Assembly: GCA_027492035.1 (NCBI GenBank)
Contig: JAOZFT010000017.1
Location: forward strand, 1 to 7,491
From: Thermoproteota archaeon
GTDB lineage: Archaea > Korarchaeota > JAOZGF01 > JAOZFZ01
Length of the DNA stretch: 7,491 bases
Direction of reading: 5' to 3'
Under the pieces are notes generated by a model. The model was not told where the DNA came from. It worked only from the letters and a program-made list of their open reading frames with translations, and made no database searches. The position numbers and the translations under genes were made by a program. The stretch's first letter is position 1. Every line of letters begins with the position of its first letter. Positions 1 to 7,491 of the stretch are shown piece by piece.

Positions 1-731
1 TCGTATACGCCTGGAGGGAAACACGGAGTTGACACGTTATCCTCTCCATCATAAATAGTTCTTACGTTGCTTCCATTAGTATCCATTACTTCCAGAACAA
101 AATGAGGCTTAGAAATATTCAAAGAAATGAATAAAATATGTTTGCCGTCATTAGACCAGGCAGGATCACTTTCATACACCTCTTCTGTGTAAGTGAGTCT
201 AGTGAGCCCTGTTCCATCTCTCCTAATTTTATAAATGTCGCTTTGGCGGCTTTTTGAAAGCTTCATCTGGAAAACCACCCATTCTCCACTGGGTGAGAAA
301 CTGTCTCCTTCTGCATTGTTTCCAGGTTTAGTTAGTCTCTTCTCTTCCCCGGTTTCTAAATCAAGTATCCAAAGAGATTTTTCCCCCTTATCAACTCTAG
401 TAACTACTAAATACTTTCTTGAGTTATCAATTCCGAAAATAAAGTGCTGCTGATTTGTAAATGTTATACGGGTAACATATCCCCCTTCGGCATCCATTGA
501 ATATATTTCACGTTTGTCTCTTTCCACGCCTCGATTTGAAACAAAGAGAATTTCTGCTGATGGAGGTAAGGAGTGGACTCTTTTGGTTATGATTGTTTGC
601 GGTAGGTTCACTGTAGGCTTTGCTGTAGGTGCTTCTTTATATGTGCATCCATTTAAAACAAGAAAACTAAGTAGTGTTAACATTAAAAGTAAAGTTTTGT
701 TTTTCCATAAACCTTTACATATAACAGACAT
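1..731 (-). CDS. Predicted lipoprotein with TolB/PD40-type beta-propeller (partial, C-terminus beyond left edge)
   Basis: This open frame runs from an ATG at 731 to the left edge without a stop (243 whole codons). The N-terminus has basic residues (K6, K10, K12), a hydrophobic core of about residues 13-26 and a lipobox-like LNGC with Cys29 as the candidate lipidated residue. A short Pro/Thr-rich linker follows. From about residue 60 there are repeated blade-like units of the PD40/TolB kind, for example ILFVSNRG...REIYSMDAEG, SLWILDLETGEEKRLT, FSPSGEWVVFQ...DIYKIRRDGTGLTRLT and WSNDGKHILFIS. Such surface propellers usually bind proteins or peptides; no catalytic residues are seen in the visible part. 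The gene starts 22 bases after the nfeD-like stop, with a GAGGAAG site about 10 bases upstream, so the two are probably co-transcribed. The lipobox has Asn at -2, which is not the commonest choice. The exact function is unknown, and it could also be the N-terminal part of a longer propeller peptidase. Confidence 0.85.
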   Translation of the reverse strand, partial: MSVICKGLWKNKTLLLMLTLLSFLVLNGCTYKEAPTAKPTVNLPQTIITKRVHSLPPSAEILFVSNRGVERDKREIYSMDAEGGYVTRITFTNQQHFIFGIDNSRKYLVVTRVDKGEKSLWILDLETGEEKRLTKPGNNAEGDSFSPSGEWVVFQMKLSKSRQSDIYKIRRDGTGLTRLTYTEEVYESDPAWSNDGKHILFISLNISKPHFVLEVMDTNGSNVRTIYDGEDNVSTPCFPPGVY

Positions 732-753: not shown

Positions 754-2046
754 CTAATTTTTCTGAGGGTTCTCACGTTTATCCTCCCTCTTAACCCTTT
801 CAACATGTAACGTTAACCCTTCTATTTCAGTAACCTTTACTTCCTCACCTTTCTTTATTTTTTGTTTCGACTTAGCTGTCCATAGATCTGAATCAACAAA
901 CACTACTCCCGGCTTCAAAGGCCCTATTTCTTTCCTAACTATTCCTCTTTTACCTATTAACTTTCTTAAGTCGTGATATTTGGTTTTATATTTTAACACT
1001 TGCCTTATTTTATGTAGGTAGAGCCCTATTAAGCCTGAAATCGTTAAGGTTAAAACAGCTAAACCTGAAGTGTAGGTTCCTTTTCCCTCCCTCCACAAAA
1101 AGTATTCATGCTGGTACATTAGAAACACTCCTACAAGCATTATACCTACCCCTAAGACAGCAAATGCCCCATGCCCTATTTTTAACTCAAAAAACATGGT
1201 TGCTGCCCCTAACAGGAAAAGAATTGCAGCTAACAAATTTATTCCTATGTACCCTAACCCTGACAAAGCCAGTATTACAAGTATAGCTGCTACTATTTCT
1301 TCAATGATTGTTGGGTGGCTTAAACCAACCAAAATAAGTAGAACAGCTGTTGAAAACATTAAACCTATGATCACAGGGTCTGAAATTAAAGAAATGAATT
1401 TTTCCCTGAACCCCTTCTTTAAAACAACTATTTCTTTCCCTGTGAAATTGTACAATTTCAAGAATTCACTGTAGTTCTTCACTTCATGGTCAATTAATCC
1501 TTTGCTGTAGGCTTCTTTAGCTGTTAAATCTAAGTTTTCCGTTACAAATTTTTCAGCTAAGCTTTCGTTTCTTCCTCTTTTTTCAGCTATTGAACGGATC
1601 CAGCCTGCCATTGCATTAATTACTTTTGGATCCTTTGCTCCGGTTATGTCTCTGGGTTGAGCTGAACCTATAACTGTGCCTTCCTCCATGACTATTTCCT
1701 TAGCTGCTAAAGCAATGTAGGTTCCTGCAGAAAAAGCAGTTGCTCCTGAAGGACCCACGTAGGCAATTACTTCTATAGGTGAATTCAGGATAAGGTTAAC
1801 TATCTCTTCCGTTGATGCAAGATACCCCCCGTTGGTGTTTATTTCTATAATTAAGAATTCACTTCCAAATTTTTGTGTTAACTTTAAAGCTTTATTTACT
1901 AACTCAACTGTTCCTGAATTTATTTCTCCCTTAAGTTCAACCTGAACAATTTTTTCTTCAGGAAATGAGGAACAAACAATAAAGTTGTGGAAGGTTAAAG
2001 CTATAACTAATAACATTAAAAAAATGAAAACATTTTTCATGCCCAA
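754..2046 (-). CDS. NfeD-family membrane-bound serine protease (ClpP-class protease domain, membrane domain, OB fold)
   Basis: The 430-residue product has the full long-NfeD layout. There is a signal peptide or anchor (about residues 4-25), then a ClpP/crotonase-like protease domain (about 32-205), five predicted membrane helices (about 221-243, 247-267, 269-288, 293-311, 327-345) and a C-terminal NfeD OB-fold domain (about 357-418, ending EGLTLHVERV). The protease domain shows the oxyanion GG motif at TNGGYL (71-76), the nucleophile Ser106 in FSAGTYIAL, and Lys141 in DPKVIN, which aligns with the catalytic Lys of the Pyrococcus horikoshii PH1510 Ser-Lys dyad. That family cleaves hydrophobic stretches of stomatin. 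The likely role is envelope or membrane protein quality control with the protease domain outside the cytoplasm. The usual stomatin (slipin) neighbour is not seen; a propeller lipoprotein follows instead. The start is either TTG at 2046, at 6 bases from GGAGG, or ATG at 2040, at 12 bases; the spacing favours TTG. A TATA-like box lies upstream. Confidence 0.93.
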   Translation of the reverse strand: MGMKNVFIFLMLLVIALTFHNFIVCSSFPEEKIVQVELKGEINSGTVELVNKALKLTQKFGSEFLIIEINTNGGYLASTEEIVNLILNSPIEVIAYVGPSGATAFSAGTYIALAAKEIVMEEGTVIGSAQPRDITGAKDPKVINAMAGWIRSIAEKRGRNESLAEKFVTENLDLTAKEAYSKGLIDHEVKNYSEFLKLYNFTGKEIVVLKKGFREKFISLISDPVIIGLMFSTAVLLILVGLSHPTIIEEIVAAILVILALSGLGYIGINLLAAILFLLGAATMFFELKIGHGAFAVLGVGIMLVGVFLMYQHEYFLWREGKGTYTSGLAVLTLTISGLIGLYLHKIRQVLKYKTKYHDLRKLIGKRGIVRKEIGPLKPGVVFVDSDLWTAKSKQKIKKGEEVKVTEIEGLTLHVERVKREDKRENPQKN

Positions 2047-2486: not shown

Positions 2487-2897
2487 ATGAAAGGCAGTCT
2501 TATACTTAAGAAAGTTAACAGTGAATTTATTCGAAAAATTGTTGAAGTTTCTGGGGTAAATGTTTTTGCTTGTTATCAGTGTGGTAGATGCTCTGCTTCT
2601 TGTCCTTTAGTTGAAGAAATGGATATTCTTCCAAACCAAATGGTAAGGCTTGTCCAGTTAGGTAATGAAGAAGTGTTGAACACAGCTACACCATGGATAT
2701 GTGCAACTTGTTTCAGCTGTACAGCCCGCTGCCCCTTAGGGATAGATATTGCTAAGTTAGCTGAGGCTTTAAGATCTATTTCTTTGAGAAAAAACATTGA
2801 CAAGGTAAAAATTAACCAAATAAGCTTCGGTGAATTGATGAAACTACCTCAAATAGCTTTAGTTTCAAATTTTAGAAAGAACACTTCTGTAAGTTAA
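2487..2897 (+). CDS. hdrC: Heterodisulfide reductase subunit C (HdrC-type, two [4Fe-4S])
   Basis: The 136-residue product is a small cytoplasmic iron-sulfur protein that carries electrons from HdrA to HdrB. Two classical cluster motifs are seen: CYQCGRCSASCP (Cys29, 32, 35, 39) and CATCFSCTARCP (Cys72, 75, 78, 82), set in the alpha-helical context typical of HdrC, with FACYQCGRCSASCP a family hallmark. It opens the operon, 24 bases ahead of hdrB. Methanogen HdrC is usually about 180-190 residues, so this one is short by some 50 residues, all missing from the C-terminal helical part after the second cluster. There is no room for a longer reading frame before hdrB, and no frameshift is evident. 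ATG at 2487 is chosen over GTG at 2478 because of the ribosome site spacing. The family call is firm, but which disulfide or thiol substrate the complex serves is not known. Confidence 0.92.
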   Translation: MKGSLILKKVNSEFIRKIVEVSGVNVFACYQCGRCSASCPLVEEMDILPNQMVRLVQLGNEEVLNTATPWICATCFSCTARCPLGIDIAKLAEALRSISLRKNIDKVKINQISFGELMKLPQIALVSNFRKNTSVS

Positions 2898-2906
2898 ATT
2901 TAAATT

Positions 2907-2913
2907 GGCGGTG
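2907..2913 (+). promoter_or_regulatory. Ribosome binding site of hdrB
   Basis: GGCGGTG lies 8 bases before ATG at 2922 and shares the GGTG core seen before the neighbouring genes. GGGG immediately before the ATG is too close to serve. Confidence 0.55.
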
Positions 2914-2921
2914 TATAGGGG

Positions 2922-3797
2922 ATGAGGGTTCCTTACTTCCCTGGTTGTTCCTTAAAGGATTTTGCTGACAATTTTGAAAAGTCAGCTTTTGCTTCAGCTT
3001 CAGTTTTAGGGGTTGAACTTGTTGAATTGCCTGAATGGTACTGCTGCGGAGTAGTTGCCCCTTTGGAGGAAGATGAGTTAATAAGGAAAGTCGCTCCTGC
3101 TAGAAACTTTTTGAGAACGAAGGAATTAGGCGGAAATAAACTTGTTACCCTTTGCTCAATGTGCTACAACACATTGAAACTTACAAACCTTTACATGAAA
3201 AAAAACCCTGACAAACTTGAAAGAATAAACAGTTTCATGGATGAGGAGGAGAACTATGATGGAACAGTTGAAGTCATCCATTTTCTTGAACTTTTGAGGG
3301 ATATTGTTGGTTTTGAAAAAATGAGGGAGAAAGTTAAAAAACCGTTAAAGGGGTTGAAGGTTGCTCCTTATTATGGATGTTTACTTTTAAGGCCTAAAGA
3401 AGTGGCTATTGATTCGCTTGAAAAACCAACAGTGATGGAGGATCTCTTAAAATCTTTAGGAGCTGAAATAGTAAATTCTCCCTTAAAAAAAACATGTTGC
3501 GGTTCCTACCAAGTAATAAACAATAAAGAAGTTGCTTCAAAACTTGTCTACAAAATAATTACTGCCGTAACAAAGAGGGGAGGGGAGGCAGTAGTTACTT
3601 CTTGTCCTCTCTGCCATTACAACCTTGACAGTTTACAAAAAGATTTAAGCGACAAATATCCTGGATACAAGGAAGTACCTGTTTTCTATTTCACTCAGTT
3701 AATGGCTTTAGCTTTCGGTTTAGAGGAAGAAGTTCTAGGTTTGGAGAAACACGAAGTAAATCCTTTAAACCTTTTGAAAAGTAAGGGATTGATTTAG
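2922..3797 (+). CDS. hdrB: Heterodisulfide reductase subunit B (HdrB, two CCG domains)
   Basis: The 291-residue product has the length and layout of HdrB, the catalytic subunit that reduces the CoM-S-S-CoB heterodisulfide in methanogens, or other disulfides in related complexes. Both CCG domains are complete. The first has Cys9 (FPGCSL), Cys41-Cys42 (WYCCG) and Cys78/Cys81 (LCSMC). The second has Cys153 (YYGCLL), Cys192-Cys193 (KTCCGS) and Cys228/Cys231 (SCPLC). Spacings are 31 and 35 residues in the first and 38 and 34 in the second, matching the family pattern CX31-39CCX35-36CXXC within one residue. In the solved methanogen complex each domain binds a noncubane [4Fe-4S] cluster, so both active clusters should form here. 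It lies between hdrC and hdrA with gaps of 24 and 12 bases. The ribosome site supports the ATG start. The true substrate is uncertain because the window gives no evidence of methanogenesis genes. Confidence 0.95.
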   Translation: MRVPYFPGCSLKDFADNFEKSAFASASVLGVELVELPEWYCCGVVAPLEEDELIRKVAPARNFLRTKELGGNKLVTLCSMCYNTLKLTNLYMKKNPDKLERINSFMDEEENYDGTVEVIHFLELLRDIVGFEKMREKVKKPLKGLKVAPYYGCLLLRPKEVAIDSLEKPTVMEDLLKSLGAEIVNSPLKKTCCGSYQVINNKEVASKLVYKIITAVTKRGGEAVVTSCPLCHYNLDSLQKDLSDKYPGYKEVPVFYFTQLMALAFGLEEEVLGLEKHEVNPLNLLKSKGLI

Positions 3798-3803
3798 GGG
3801 GTG
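3797..3803 (+). promoter_or_regulatory. Ribosome binding site deciding the hdrA start
   Basis: GGGGGTG overlaps the last base of the hdrB stop and ends 6 bases before ATG at 3810. The in-frame GTG at 3801 lies within it and would have no spacing at all. Confidence 0.6.
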
Positions 3804-3809
3804 GAGTCA

Positions 3810-5765
3810 ATGCGAGTTGGGGTTTTTGTTTGTCATTGTGGAAGAAACATAGCCGGAACCCTAAATATTGAAAAAATAAAGGAGGAAGTGGCTAAACATT
3901 CTGGAGTTGTTCATGTGGAAGATTACATTTTCATGTGTTCCGATCCAGGTCAAAAACTTATAAGAGATCGAATAAAAGAGAAAAACCTTGACGCAGTCGT
4001 TGTTTCAGCCTGCTCCCCCTCTTTACATGAAAAAACATTCAGAAACAATGCTGCATCTGTAGGATTAAACCCTTACAAAGTTGAAATAGCGAACATAAGG
4101 GAATGGGCTTCTTGGCCTCATGAAGGAAAACCTGAAGAAGCTACTGAGAAAGCAATAAAAATAATAAAGGCCACAGTTGAAAAAGTTAAAAGTAATATTC
4201 CTCTCGAACCTCTCTCTGTCCCTGTGACAAGGAAAGTTCTTGTTATTGGGGGAGGAATAGCAGGTATTCAGGCTTCACTTGACATAGCGAACGCAGGTCT
4301 TGAAGTTTATCTTGTAGAAAAGAAACCAAGCATAGGGGGGAAAATGGCTCAATTTTCGGAAACGTTTCCTACACTAGACTGTCCCCAATGTATTGAAACC
4401 CCTAAAATGACTGAAGTGGCTAACCACCCAAACATTCACTTATATGCTTACTCTGAGGTTGTGGATGTTTCAGGTTTTGTTGGAAACTTTAAAGTTAAAG
4501 TTAAAAGAAAAGCAACTTACGTGGACTGGAATAAATGTACAGGGTGCAGTGAATGCGCAAAAGTTTGTCCTGTTAAAGTTTCTTCAGAATATGACGTAGG
4601 AGTGTCTCAGAGAAAAGCTATTTACATAATGTTTCCTCAAGCTGTACCTAACAAAGCAACAATAGACCCTGAACATTGCTTAAGACTGGTTTACGGTAAA
4701 GGATGCGGCTTATGCGCGAAAACATGTCCAGCTGGAGCAATAAATTTTGAACAAAAAGAAAAAATTGAGGAGATAGATGTTGGGGCAATAATTGTAGCCA
4801 CAGGATTTGATGTAATGGATCCAAGTCTCTTGACTGAGTATGGGGGAGGGAAATATAAAGACGTTATTTCAGCCTTACAGTTCGAAAGGATACTTGCACC
4901 TTCAGGCCCCACAGGGGGCAAAGTAGTTAGGCCTTCAGATGGTAAAGAACCGAAAACCGTGGTTTTTGTTCAATGTGCAGGTTCAAGGGATCCTGAGCAT
5001 TACATGCCTTATTGTTCAAAGGTTTGTTGTATGTACACAGCTAAACAAGCCCTACTTTATAAACATGCAGTTCCTAATGGGCATGCTTATGTTTTCTATA
5101 TTGACGTGAGAACTGACGGTAAGGGATATGAAGAATTTTATGAAAGGGTTTTAAGGGAAGCTGAGGCAACTTATTTAAGAGGGAAGGTTGCGGAAATATA
5201 TAAGGAAGATGGTAAGTTAAAAGTTTTAGGCGTGGACACTTTAACAGGTAAAGGAGTAGAAATTAATGCTGACTTAGTGGTTTTAGCAACCGCTGCAGTT
5301 CCAAGTGAAGGCATTAAGGAATTAGCTAAAGTATTGAGGATTCAAACAGATGAATACGGTTGGCTTAAGGAAGCTCATTTAAAGCTGAGGCCGTTAGAAA
5401 CAGCCACAAGTGGAATATTTATTGCAGGTGCTGCTCAATTTATTAGAGACATAACAGATACTGTTTCACACGCCAGCGGCGCAGCAGCTAAGGCGTTATC
5501 CCTTCTTTCCAGGAACCGAATTGAGAGGGAACCTCTAGTGGCTGAAGTTAATGAAGAAATATGTTCAGGGTGTGGAAACTGTGTCGAAGCATGTACTTAC
5601 CAAGCCATAAAAATAGACCCTGAAACAAACATTGCAAAGATAAACACTGCTCTTTGTGAAGGATGCGGTGCCTGTCAGGCTTCATGTCCATCTGCAGCCA
5701 TCCAGTTGACAAACAGTTACAAAAAACAACTTTTTGAAATGATTTCTATCTTAGCTAAGGAATAA
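3810..5765 (+). CDS. hdrA: Heterodisulfide reductase subunit A (HdrA, electron-bifurcating FAD protein)
   Basis: The 651-residue product matches the usual HdrA length of about 650. Its FAD splits or merges electron pairs between a high- and a low-potential path. In order it shows: an N-terminal domain with CHC (Cys8, Cys10), Cys43 and Cys68; an FAD Rossmann motif VLVIGGGIAG (143-152); the HdrA signature FPTLDCPQC (Cys191, Cys194); an inserted ferredoxin part with CTGCSECAKVCP (Cys243-253) and C290 plus CGLCAKTCP (Cys299-306); the thioredoxin-reductase-like remainder with QCAGSRD and YCSKVCCMYTAK (Cys402, 406, 407); and a C-terminal two-cluster ferredoxin (Cys585-595 and Cys616-626). All expected cluster ligands appear to be Cys, with no in-frame TGA that would suggest selenocysteine. 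ATG at 3810 is preferred to GTG at 3801 on ribosome-site spacing. It sits between hdrB and mvhD in the operon. Confidence 0.96.
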   Translation: MRVGVFVCHCGRNIAGTLNIEKIKEEVAKHSGVVHVEDYIFMCSDPGQKLIRDRIKEKNLDAVVVSACSPSLHEKTFRNNAASVGLNPYKVEIANIREWASWPHEGKPEEATEKAIKIIKATVEKVKSNIPLEPLSVPVTRKVLVIGGGIAGIQASLDIANAGLEVYLVEKKPSIGGKMAQFSETFPTLDCPQCIETPKMTEVANHPNIHLYAYSEVVDVSGFVGNFKVKVKRKATYVDWNKCTGCSECAKVCPVKVSSEYDVGVSQRKAIYIMFPQAVPNKATIDPEHCLRLVYGKGCGLCAKTCPAGAINFEQKEKIEEIDVGAIIVATGFDVMDPSLLTEYGGGKYKDVISALQFERILAPSGPTGGKVVRPSDGKEPKTVVFVQCAGSRDPEHYMPYCSKVCCMYTAKQALLYKHAVPNGHAYVFYIDVRTDGKGYEEFYERVLREAEATYLRGKVAEIYKEDGKLKVLGVDTLTGKGVEINADLVVLATAAVPSEGIKELAKVLRIQTDEYGWLKEAHLKLRPLETATSGIFIAGAAQFIRDITDTVSHASGAAAKALSLLSRNRIEREPLVAEVNEEICSGCGNCVEACTYQAIKIDPETNIAKINTALCEGCGACQASCPSAAIQLTNSYKKQLFEMISILAKE

Positions 5766-5775
5766 ACCCTTTATT

Positions 5776-5780
5776 GGTGG
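5776..5780 (+). promoter_or_regulatory. Ribosome binding site deciding the mvhD start
   Basis: GGTGG ends 5 bases before ATG at 5786. The in-frame TTG at 5774 and GTG at 5777 overlap this site and are therefore unlikely starts. Confidence 0.6.
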
Positions 5781-5785
5781 AAAAA

Positions 5786-6235
5786 ATGGCTGAAAAATCA
5801 GTTGAGGAAGGAAAAGAAAAATTCGAACCTGTAATAGTTGGGTTCTTTTGTAGATGGTGTACATCCGAAGCTGCAGACTTAGCTGGAACAATTAGGTTGC
5901 AGTATCCGCCAAACATAAGACCCATAAGGGTTATGTGCAGTGGTTTCATTGACCCCATATATGTTCTAAAAGCTTTTTTGGAAGGGGCAGATGGAGTACT
6001 CATAGGAGGCTGCCACTTAGGTGAATGCCACTATATTAACGGCAACTATAAGGCCCAAACAAGGGTAAAGGTAATCAAGGAAGTAATGAAATCCCTGGGG
6101 TTGGAAGAGGAAAGATTAAGGTTGGAATGGATTAGCACCTCTGAAGGCTTAAAATTCGCGGAAGTAGCTAATGAATTCACTGAACAAATAAGACGGATGG
6201 GTCCAAACCCCTTGAAGAAGCTGAAAAGGGAGTGA
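5786..6235 (+). CDS. mvhD: MvhD/HdrA-docking [2Fe-2S] subunit
   Basis: The 149-residue product belongs to the MvhD family (methyl-viologen-reducing hydrogenase delta subunit), which docks on HdrA and passes electrons into it from a hydrogenase, formate dehydrogenase or other donor. The conserved cysteines are all seen: Cys22 and Cys25 in GFFCRWC, Cys51 in RVMCSG, and Cys76 and Cys81 in GGCHLGECHY, followed by the family's INGNYKAQ. The length is normal for a stand-alone MvhD. It starts 20 bases after hdrA and ends 7 bases before the FdhB-like frame, so its partner is probably the FdhB-like protein. The first dozen residues are charged (Glu/Lys-rich) and outside the conserved fold. Family assignment is firm; the donor it serves is inferred from the neighbour. 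Confidence 0.95.
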   Translation: MAEKSVEEGKEKFEPVIVGFFCRWCTSEAADLAGTIRLQYPPNIRPIRVMCSGFIDPIYVLKAFLEGADGVLIGGCHLGECHYINGNYKAQTRVKVIKEVMKSLGLEEERLRLEWISTSEGLKFAEVANEFTEQIRRMGPNPLKKLKRE

Positions 6236-6242
6236 ATAGGAG

Positions 6243-7382
6243 TTGGAAGGAGCATTTCTTGAAAGTAATCCTGAAAATAAAGGCAACATCAAAAAAATTA
6301 AGGAGTCAGTGAATAGATTTCTTCAACAATTACTGGAGAAAAAGGTAGTTGAGTGGGTGTTAACTCCCTACATCAACCCAGAAAACCCCCTCCCTGAAAG
6401 AAGAATAATAACTAAACCTGAAGAAGCAATTAAAGCTGACCCCTTAACCCCTGTAATACCTGGATTCCCGATGTCAACGTTTGTTTCAGAAATAACCCGT
6501 GAAAAACCAATCAGTAAACCTTTAGCTGTTTTACTTAAGCCATGTGAGGCTGCAAGCTTAGTAGAACTTGTCAAATTTAGGCAAGCAAATTTAGATAACC
6601 TATTGACCATAGGAGTAGATTGCTATGGCTCCTACCATGTTTTAGACTTCAAAAAAATGGTTGAGGAAGGGGAGAAACCATTTGAAAGAATGATTAATGC
6701 ATTAAAAAACAATAAAGGGGATGAACTTTTCAGAACAGCATGTAAAACATGTTTAAAACCTGTAGCAGAAAACACCGACTTAAACGTAGGGATAATAGGA
6801 GTCAATAATTTGTTTATTCAGGCAAACACAAGCAAAGGAACTGAAACACTTAAAAAGATAGGGTTAAAAATCGTTGAAAACAAAGAAAGAGACCAAAAAA
6901 TAAAGGAGTTAATTGAAGAAAGAGGTGAAAAAAGGAAGGGGATGTTTAAAGAATTCCTTAAAGAACTCCATGGGCTCCACAAACTAAACAAGTTTTTTGA
7001 AGACTGCATAAACTGCCACAACTGCATGGAAGTTTGTCCCATCTGTTTCTGTAAAGAATGCTTTTTCGAATCAGAACTCCACCCCTACGTCTACGAAAAA
7101 TACATAAAATTCACAATTGAGGAAGGAACCATCCAGGAGCTAGAAGGCAAGCTTCAGTTCCATTTAGGAAGACTAATTCATATGAGTACCTCCTGTGTTT
7201 CATGTGGACTTTGTGAGCAAGCATGTCCACAAGAAATAAAACTGTTTAAATTGTGCGGTCCAGTTTCTGAAAATGTGCAGAAAAGCTTCAATTACCGAGC
7301 TGGTGAAAAACTGGAAGAGACGCCTCCAATAACAACCTTCTATGAAGAAGATTTAGGGTTAACTGAAAAACAAGCCGAATAA
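6243..7382 (+). CDS. FdhB/FrhB-like iron-sulfur flavoprotein, putative electron-donor subunit for Hdr-MvhD
   Basis: The 379-residue product resembles FdhB, the beta subunit of F420-linked formate dehydrogenase (about 400 residues in methanogens), with an FrhB-type domain followed by a two-cluster ferredoxin part. LLKPCEAASLVELVKFRQANLDNLLTIGVDC is split by family landmarks KPCEA (Cys101) and GVDC (Cys127); with CKTC (Cys167, Cys170) these four could ligate one cluster. A charged helical linker (about 200-245) leads to CINCHNCMEVCP (Cys255-265), then CFCKECFF (Cys268, 270, 273), and CVSCGLCEQACP (Cys318-328), all with FdhB counterparts. The N-terminal part lacks the CGG...TAL segment of FdhB, so flavin or F420 binding is uncertain. 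It starts 7 bases after mvhD. The start is unclear: TTG at 6243 directly abuts TAGGAG, while GTG at 6309 has AGGAG 3 bases ahead and would begin MNRFLQQLLEKK. No FdhA is seen in the window. Confidence 0.85.
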   Translation: MEGAFLESNPENKGNIKKIKESVNRFLQQLLEKKVVEWVLTPYINPENPLPERRIITKPEEAIKADPLTPVIPGFPMSTFVSEITREKPISKPLAVLLKPCEAASLVELVKFRQANLDNLLTIGVDCYGSYHVLDFKKMVEEGEKPFERMINALKNNKGDELFRTACKTCLKPVAENTDLNVGIIGVNNLFIQANTSKGTETLKKIGLKIVENKERDQKIKELIEERGEKRKGMFKEFLKELHGLHKLNKFFEDCINCHNCMEVCPICFCKECFFESELHPYVYEKYIKFTIEEGTIQELEGKLQFHLGRLIHMSTSCVSCGLCEQACPQEIKLFKLCGPVSENVQKSFNYRAGEKLEETPPITTFYEEDLGLTEKQAE

Positions 7383-7422: not shown

Positions 7423-7491
7423 ATGGAAACTCTAACCAAAAGATTAATTAAAATATCACCTGAAGAAATTCCACAAGATATAGTGGATGAA
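7423..7491 (+). CDS. Start of a further operon gene (partial, possibly a second HdrC-like protein)
   Basis: Only the first 23 codons are in the window, open to the right edge. The peptide starts METLTKRLIKISPEEIPQ and is Lys/Glu/Ile-rich, with no motif of its own. It has a good ribosome site and begins 40 bases after the FdhB-like stop, so it is probably part of the same operon. HdrC proteins often begin with a short stretch of this type (a beta-like LIKI, then an acidic helix) ahead of the first cluster, which would lie just outside the window; the hdrC in this window has a comparable SLILKKVNSEFIRKIVEV. That resemblance is weak, and any other redox subunit is possible. Gene presence is fairly likely, its identity is a guess. 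Confidence 0.55.
   Translation, partial: METLTKRLIKISPEEIPQDIVDE

Follow-up and report, generated by a model that had tools for sequence, protein, structure and literature searches.

A heterodisulfide reductase operon of a korarchaeote that continues into fumarate-reductase-type genes: a possible Hdr-linked soluble fumarate reductase

Where do the electrons go in an HdrCBA-MvhD module that is followed by an FdhB-like protein and, within the sequence at hand, by no catalytic subunit? The question is raised by a 7,491-nucleotide stretch of DNA (here called the window) from a Thermoproteota archaeon of the Korarchaeota (assembly GCA_027492035.1, contig JAOZFT010000017.1). A first-pass annotation described five tightly spaced plus-strand genes with an intact HdrCBA-MvhD module, the last gene being FdhB-like (hereafter FB), and this description holds. 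ORF calling gives five close-packed plus-strand frames with intergenic gaps of 24, 3, 8, and 7 bases (Table 1); domain searches find HdrC, HdrB with two CCG domains, and MvhD/FlpD; and HdrA retains 5odc residues C197, E356, and K409 at positions 197, 362, and 415. Judged by its flavin, cluster, and CCG residues, the HdrABC-MvhD core is intact and predicted to be flavin-bifurcating. For hdrC, the ATG at 2487 is favored over a GTG at 2478 because the latter sits inside the likely ribosome-binding site. The reported lack of a catalytic subunit is true of the window and not of the operon: the window is an entire assembly contig, ending at 7491, 109 bases past the FB stop codon, and the subunit is out of view because the contig stops there.

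Table 1. Features of the window and of its continuation on contig G000:C6 (locus L122).
Feature	Position	Strand	Description
hdrC	2487..2897	+	two [4Fe-4S] ferredoxin-like subunit; Fer4_8 E 3e-10; TIGR03290 HdrC E 7e-19, under its cut-off
hdrB	2922..3797	+	two CCG (cysteine-rich) domains; CCG E 4e-22; TIGR03288 HdrB E 9e-52, under its cut-off
hdrA	3801..5765	+	predicted bifurcating flavin subunit, 654 aa; end-to-end match to 5odc_A, E 5e-209
mvhD	5774..6235	+	[2Fe-2S] connector; FlpD (PF02662) E 8e-53
FB	6243..7382	+	FdhB/ElpB homologue; FrhB-type domain, then C-terminal ferredoxin domain; 15 invariant Cys
HdrD-like gene (sixth), start	7423..7491	+	rest on contig G000:C6, L122:59-1291
overlap with contig G000:C6	7365..7491	.	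127 bases, exact, equal to the first 127 bases of C6
frdB	L122:1266-2033		on contig G000:C6
frdA	L122:2274-3941		on contig G000:C6

The operon carries on, with HdrD-like, FrdB-like, and FrdA-like genes, in contig C6 of this genome, whose first 127 bases match the window's last 127 exactly. In full it has eight genes, hdrC-hdrB-hdrA-mvhD-FB-hdrD-frdB-frdA, of which the window has the first five. The earlier suspicion that the next genes might supply a catalytic subunit was thus borne out, the subunit being of fumarate-reductase type; neither fdhA nor mvhAG follows to the right, here or in the related locus L093. That locus, on a single contig (G001:C144) of a genome from the same family, has the complete eight-gene order, which is partly seen in other genomes of the phylum: MvhD-FB-HdrD-FrdB-FrdA is present in G002 (L095) and G023 (L096), both truncated on the 5' side, and in G024 (L097) the same genes occur, but with 324-aa and 195-aa ORFs between hdrD and frdB. 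More widely, FrdB and/or FrdA lie close to FB in 16 of 68 FB loci, among them loci from Aerophobetes, Atribacteria, Thermodesulfobacteriota, TA06, and Thermoplasmata, and FlxA/FlxB are absent from all 16. Many other loci have FB relatives and no FrdBA, which counts against the linked reductase proposed below. FB without FrdBA does occur in the window's own genome, at a second locus (C9, L091) with the order HdrA-MvhD-FB-HdrD. HdrC/HdrD genes directly adjoin FB in many loci, which suggests contact between the proteins. A literature search, with most subscription journals outside its coverage, found no archaeal Hdr-FdhB-FrdBA operon.

What might such an operon do? About an even chance can be given to a soluble fumarate reductase coupled to flavin bifurcation at HdrA, with FB mainly an iron-sulfur bridge. 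The HdrA flavin would receive electrons in mid-potential pairs, supplied by F420H2 or a comparable carrier either directly or via another partner, and split them: one branch would reduce ferredoxin, and the other would run through the Hdr iron-sulfur and CCG clusters to the HdrD-FrdB pair and on to FrdA, where fumarate would be reduced to succinate. FB would chiefly link the HdrD/FrdB module to MvhD-HdrA and would not be a flavin-bearing carrier oxidase. Both the electron donor and the physical complex are putative in this scheme, and the archaeal operon has neither FlxAB nor any other evident module for electron donation, a point against it. With such a coupling, the operon probably lets the cell conserve energy during the conversion of fumarate to succinate.

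A broader version, for which the balance is somewhat unfavorable, is that these loci represent a new lineage of soluble fumarate reductases that bifurcate electrons, common to uncultured archaea and to several phyla of bacteria. In this lineage an FdhB-type protein would have lost its flavin site and become an iron-sulfur wire from HdrA-MvhD to a split thiol:fumarate reductase, and reducing fumarate would yield low-potential ferredoxin without a membrane. If so, these archaea would have a cytoplasmic route for storing the energy released by reducing fumarate, in the form of reduced ferredoxin that might power steps of the reductive TCA cycle or the Wood-Ljungdahl pathway, and Hdr-linked fumarate reduction, a proposal based until now on gene clusters of bacteria, would extend to archaea.

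The catalytic end of the operon is the better defined. FrdA retains all of the E. coli FrdA catalytic residues (H232, T234, E245, R287, H355, R390) in 17 of 17 relatives; by this measure it is a fumarate-reductase-type subunit with a predicted intact dicarboxylate active site. Membrane quinol:fumarate reductases differ in having a covalent-FAD histidine and an anchor: here the corresponding His44 is replaced by Asn throughout the 17, and no anchor gene adjoins the complete operon in L093. FrdB has its 12 cluster cysteines in 16 of 16 sequences, both C-terminal clusters being of the CxxCxxCxxxC type. In the FrdA tree the set forms one group (100/100 support), and the SdhA/TfrA-type protein of the host falls outside it. 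Contig C4 has an SdhA/TfrB-type pair distinct from the operon that could also carry out fumarate chemistry, a point against the reading favored here.

The closest relatives of this module raise another possibility, which is on the whole unlikely: HdrD-FrdB-FrdA may form a thiol:fumarate reductase on its own, with TfrB divided between two genes, the HdrABC-MvhD-FB part reducing a diffusible disulfide and the split enzyme reoxidizing the thiols with fumarate, as a pathway and not a single complex. FrdA's nearest NCBIfam model is TfrA (E 1e-98; 330.8 bits, below the cut-off of 718), and the HdrD-like protein and FrdB match the C-terminal (E 2e-49) and N-terminal (E 4e-10) parts of TfrB, respectively. 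HdrA-MvhD-FB cores without FrdBA, on C9 and in the related genome on G001:C38, also fit two independent units. The methanogen enzyme differs, however, in that TfrB is a single protein and CoM-SH/CoB-SH the donor, and the scores here fall under curated cut-offs. CoM-S-S-CoB is not expected, because mcrA was not found in the host genome or two relatives; the same lack of a match in three genomes speaks against a role in methanogenesis, in keeping with the setting first suggested for the locus. The direct adjacency of FB to HdrC/HdrD genes also counts against two separate units.

For the bifurcating fumarate reductase, much depends on what FB does. FB is a full-length FdhB homologue, as first described: its domains are FrhB_FdhB_C (E 5e-6) and Fer4, profile comparisons with FdhB/ElpB chains of the solved Fdh-Hdr and Elp-Hdr complexes give E 3e-66 to 6e-53, and superposition of its predicted model (pLDDT 91) gives Z 34.3 over 354 residues (rmsd 3.4) with FdhB 7bkb_E and Z 31.9 over 342 residues (rmsd 3.4) with ElpB 8rvu_E. 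Its 15 invariant cysteines have FdhB counterparts. The CPxCxC motif at first suggested a HydB/AsrA/FlxB protein, but profile and fold scores favor FdhB/ElpB (Z 34 for FdhB; the P. furiosus SHI beta subunit reaches 17).

Could FB be an ElpB-like protein that binds FAD, oxidizes F420H2, and feeds MvhD-HdrA, with FrdBA and HdrD as the high-potential acceptor side? The two superpositions and the shared cysteines are consistent with this, F420H2 is already shown to feed Hdr through an FdhB homologue in methanogens (Elp-Hdr of Methanothermobacter marburgensis; PMC12350162), and the host genome has an F420-dependent Mtd above its curated cut-off and two CofE matches. The reading is nevertheless doubtful. 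The helix 1 Gly-Gly motif GG[AIV][VSA][TS] of FAD/F420-binding FrhB/FdhB/ElpB proteins, which presumably binds flavin given its conservation in solved members, occurs in 0 of 78 FB family members; the C127-C167 segment, a hairpin preceding the second Cys pair, has a median spacing of 38, some 20 residues below the 54-62 of seven solved members; CofE, the F420 ligase, has no match in 19 of 20 other FB host genomes; and no ElpA/FdhA homologue is present in the operon. The first three of these points weaken the idea that FB draws electrons from a soluble carrier, and the further idea that it alone feeds MvhD-HdrA is not supported now that a catalytic module is seen to come next. In these features FB resembles an iron-sulfur relay more than a carrier oxidase, and it could still serve a different carrier. 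Absence of F420 from the host itself is not supported, as Mtd and CofE are there; CofD was not found, which counts against the ElpB-like reading. If FB is indeed a relay, an FdhB-like gene next to hdrA need not imply F420 or formate.

Another possibility is that the complex runs in reverse, oxidizing succinate with reduced ferredoxin as second donor (confurcation). Fumarate has a standard potential of +30 mV. With F420 at -380 mV and ferredoxin at about -520 mV (quoted in PMC5296606), standard potentials give about +52 kJ/mol for making two F420H2 from succinate and reduced ferredoxin, against about -52 for the reductive direction. Enzymes of the fumarate reductase superfamily can be reversible, and a Culexarchaeia SdhA-Hdr-hydrogenase cluster has been discussed for succinate oxidation (PMC9723716), but given these energetics the reverse reading is improbable. 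An ordinary Fdh-Hdr or Mvh-Hdr complex with its catalytic subunit just past the window, as FB and MvhD, connector subunits of such complexes, might have suggested, has practically no chance: HdrD, FrdB, and FrdA come next on C6 and in the complete operon of L093, which refutes it for this operon, the genome's only molybdopterin-family match is FwdB-like, and the one clear NiFe hydrogenase it has, a HysAB-type enzyme, is encoded on contig C38, away from the operon.

The proposed Hdr-linked fumarate reductase shares parts with several known systems. Elp-Hdr (ElpABC-HdrABC; PDB 8rvu) has the HdrABC core, an MvhD-type ElpC, and in ElpB one of the two solved folds closest to FB, but it also has ElpA (a non-catalytic FdhA homologue without the molybdopterin domain), FAD in ElpB, and F420H2 as donor, and it lacks FrdBA and HdrD, both present here beside an FB without the Gly-Gly motif; no ElpA gene was found in the window, C6, or L093. 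Fdh-Hdr-Fmd of Methanospirillum hungatei (PDB 7bkb) provides the closest solved fold, FdhB, and shares MvhD and HdrABC, but its donor is the FdhA formate dehydrogenase, whereas the present operon lacks fdhA and has FrdBA. HdrA, MvhD, and FdhB homologues occur together in ANME clusters (PMC9012536; PMC12054007), some (ANME-1) without FdhA; these belong to methane/alkane metabolizers, often with a molybdopterin-family protein, and the available parts of these sources do not mention FrdBA. Until now, coupling of Hdr to fumarate reductase has been no more than a proposal, made for a few bacteria in which Flx-Hdr is combined with FrdAB or TfrAB: HdrABC-FlxABCD accompanies FrdAB in a “succinate operon” in Pseudoclostridium thermosuccinogenes (PMC7282089), and korABCD-tfrAB-flxABCD-hdrABC clusters are found in Thioflavicoccus and tubeworm symbionts (PMC6315080). 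The likeness lies in the clustering of fumarate reductase genes beside HdrABC; these bacterial clusters have NADH input through Flx, whereas the operon here has no FlxA/FlxB, an additional HdrD-like subunit, and an FdhB-type bridge. Short FB relatives elsewhere occupy the FlxC position. In the host genome, formylmethanofuran-pathway genes are on contig C38, and on contig C20 a set of genes for a 2-oxoacid:ferredoxin oxidoreductase adjoins a further Hdr set.

The five tightly spaced plus-strand genes that the first-pass annotation had described in the window, an Hdr-MvhD core ending in an FdhB-like gene (FB), are confirmed as ORFs lying 3 to 24 bases apart, with assignments of the core backed by Pfam and NCBIfam and an end-to-end alignment of the window HdrA with the solved HdrA chain 5odc_A (E 5e-209). 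The NCBIfam scores are below the curated cut-offs, so the Hdr and MvhD proteins are to be taken as relatives of the methanogen proteins rather than certified orthologues. HdrA retains the equivalents of C197, E356 and K409 (5odc numbering), whose roles are described in PMC9012536 (Cys197) and PMC12054007 (E356 and K409). The accompanying interpretation, that FB alone might feed MvhD-HdrA from a soluble carrier, is supported only in part: the core is intact, but the operon continues on contig C6 of the same genome (G000) with hdrD, frdB and frdA, which encode a putative catalytic module.

The window is the complete 7491-base contig C13, and a sixth ORF opens at 7423, past the FB stop codon. The last 127 bases of the window match exactly the first 127 of C6 (3944 bases), and such an overlap is the usual mark of adjoining contigs in a k=127 assembly graph. 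Three proteins are encoded on C6 before it ends: one HdrD-like, one FrdB-like (255 aa) and a FrdA-like flavoprotein (555 aa). The full order hdrC-hdrB-hdrA-mvhD-FB-hdrD-frdB-frdA is found on a single contig (C144, locus L093) of G001, a genome of the same family, with no membrane anchor gene next to it. In the related genomes G002 (L095) and G023 (L096), whose loci are truncated on the 5' side, the remaining genes keep this order; G024 (L097) also follows it, except that two ORFs, of 324 and 195 aa, separate hdrD from frdB. Of 68 FB loci taken from genome_contigs and the related genomes, 16 have FrdB and/or FrdA near FB, a rough proportion, the 68 not all coming from independent genomes and many loci, the window included, being truncated. 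FlxA or FlxB accompanies none of these 16, among which are records from Aerophobetes, Atribacteria, Thermodesulfobacteriota, TA06 and Thermoplasmata; the HdrA of the bacterial loci often has at least 1000 aa and two flavin-type domains.

Coordinates of features in the window, elsewhere in G000 and at one comparison locus
Feature	Location	Strand	Remark
Lipoprotein-like protein	window 3-731	-	partial; PD40 beta-propeller repeats; upstream of operon
NfeD1b-type membrane protease homologue	window 754-2046	-	opposite strand, upstream of operon
hdrC	window 2487-2897	+	ORF
hdrB	window 2922-3797	+	ORF
hdrA	window 3801-5765	+	ORF
mvhD	window 5774-6235	+	ORF
FB	window 6243-7382	+	ORF
HdrA-MvhD-FB-HdrD, second locus	C9, L091:9329-14095	-	no FrdBA or other dehydrogenase adjoining
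2-oxoacid:ferredoxin oxidoreductase, then HdrA2 (MvhD fused), HdrC, HdrB	C20, L092:3867-10628		
SdhA/TfrB-type pair and adjoining genes	C4, L123:3590-9328		
FrhB-type F420 oxidoreductase	C4, L123:11008-12069		NGGAVT
HysAB-type NiFe hydrogenase	C38, L142:5690-8437		beside putative hydrogenase maturation factors; no Hdr gene linked
Short FB relative, FlxB-like, FlxA-like	L043:15082-18149		

The operon is best explained as encoding a soluble Hdr-linked fumarate reductase. Counterparts of the E. coli FrdA active-site residues H232, T234, E245, R287, H355 and R390 are all retained in 17 of 17 FrdA sequences; the covalent-FAD histidine is replaced by asparagine in every one. All 16 FrdB sequences have the 12 cluster cysteines, both C-terminal cluster motifs being CxxCxxCxxxC. 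In a tree with few outgroup rows, where long branches meet, the FrdA sequences group together with 100/100 support, separate from the SdhA/TfrA-type protein of G000. FrdA is nearest TfrA, and one half of TfrB resembles the HdrD-like protein and the other FrdB, hence a description as a split thiol:fumarate reductase.

Because fumarate (standard potential +30 mV) is too oxidising for a mid-potential donor couple, FrdBA is expected on the acceptor side. With F420 at -380 mV and ferredoxin at about -520 mV (PMC5296606), fumarate and ferredoxin reduction by 2 F420H2 comes from standard potentials to about -52 kJ/mol, making bifurcation feasible and its reverse infeasible under standard conditions. 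Donor electrons could enter at HdrA itself, which in HdrA2B2C2 can react directly with F420H2 (PMC5296606), at FB, or at an unlinked partner.

Entry at FB would make the complex Elp-like: FB might take up donor electrons by binding FAD and oxidising F420H2, as in the F420H2-dependent Elp-Hdr complex known from purification and cryo-EM (PMC12350162). A profile of 78 FB family members matches, over their full length, the FdhB and ElpB chains in Hdr complexes of known structure (E 3e-66 to 6e-53), and the AlphaFold2 model of FB (pLDDT 91, pTM 0.91) superimposes on FdhB 7bkb_E (Z 34.3, 354 residues, rmsd 3.4) and ElpB 8rvu_E (Z 31.9, 342 residues, rmsd 3.4), the next-best match scoring Z 17. Fifteen cysteines are invariant in the family. 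The GG[AIV][VSA][TS] motif of solved FrhB, FdhB and ElpB proteins, by its conservation a putative flavin-site marker, occurs in none of the 78 members; the C127-C167 stretch has a median of 38 residues, against 54-62 in reference sequences. The FrhB-type protein of G000 retains the motif.

A search for F420 genes, suggested by the first-pass annotation, was partly positive: F420-dependent Mtd (with FwdB) scores above the curated cut-off and there are two CofE matches in G000, but CofD was found in G001 and not in G000. CofE matches are absent from 19 of 20 other FB-bearing genomes, of ungiven completeness, so that single absences are weak; the pattern argues against F420 as a general partner of FB. 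The suggested setting outside methanogenesis agrees with the lack of an mcrA match in G000 or two relatives. The sole molybdopterin-family match in G000 is the FwdB-like protein, and its NiFe hydrogenase is distant from the operon.

The second FB locus, on C9, is where the FB-only idea applies; G001 has the same arrangement (C38, L094). The C20 genes recall kor-hdr clusters (PMC6315080), and those beside the SdhA/TfrB-type pair, as read from sequence, probably encode succinyl-CoA synthetase. Proposals of Hdr-linked fumarate reduction exist for gammaproteobacterial rTCA clusters (PMC6315080) and for P. thermosuccinogenes (PMC7282089, citing a 2019 preprint); HdrA-FdhB clusters without FdhA are known from ANME-1 (PMC9012536). 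A literature search thin on subscription journals found no published account of an archaeal Hdr-FdhB-FrdBA combination.

Short FB relatives (315-350 aa) are followed by FlxB-like and FlxA-like genes at L043, L063 and L089 (at L043 with Fer4_22, and NAD_binding_1 plus DHODB Fe-S, respectively), so FlxC appears to be an FB family member. Tandem FB pairs (MvhD-HdrA-HdrA-FB-FB-MvhD) occur in Aminicenantes, WOR-3 and others (L047, L057, L058, L062, L063, L069, L073, L079, L082); upstream are an ORF of 74-85 aa, TusA-like in looks, and often one of 117 aa, DsrE-like in looks, and these loci are possibly sulfur-linked.
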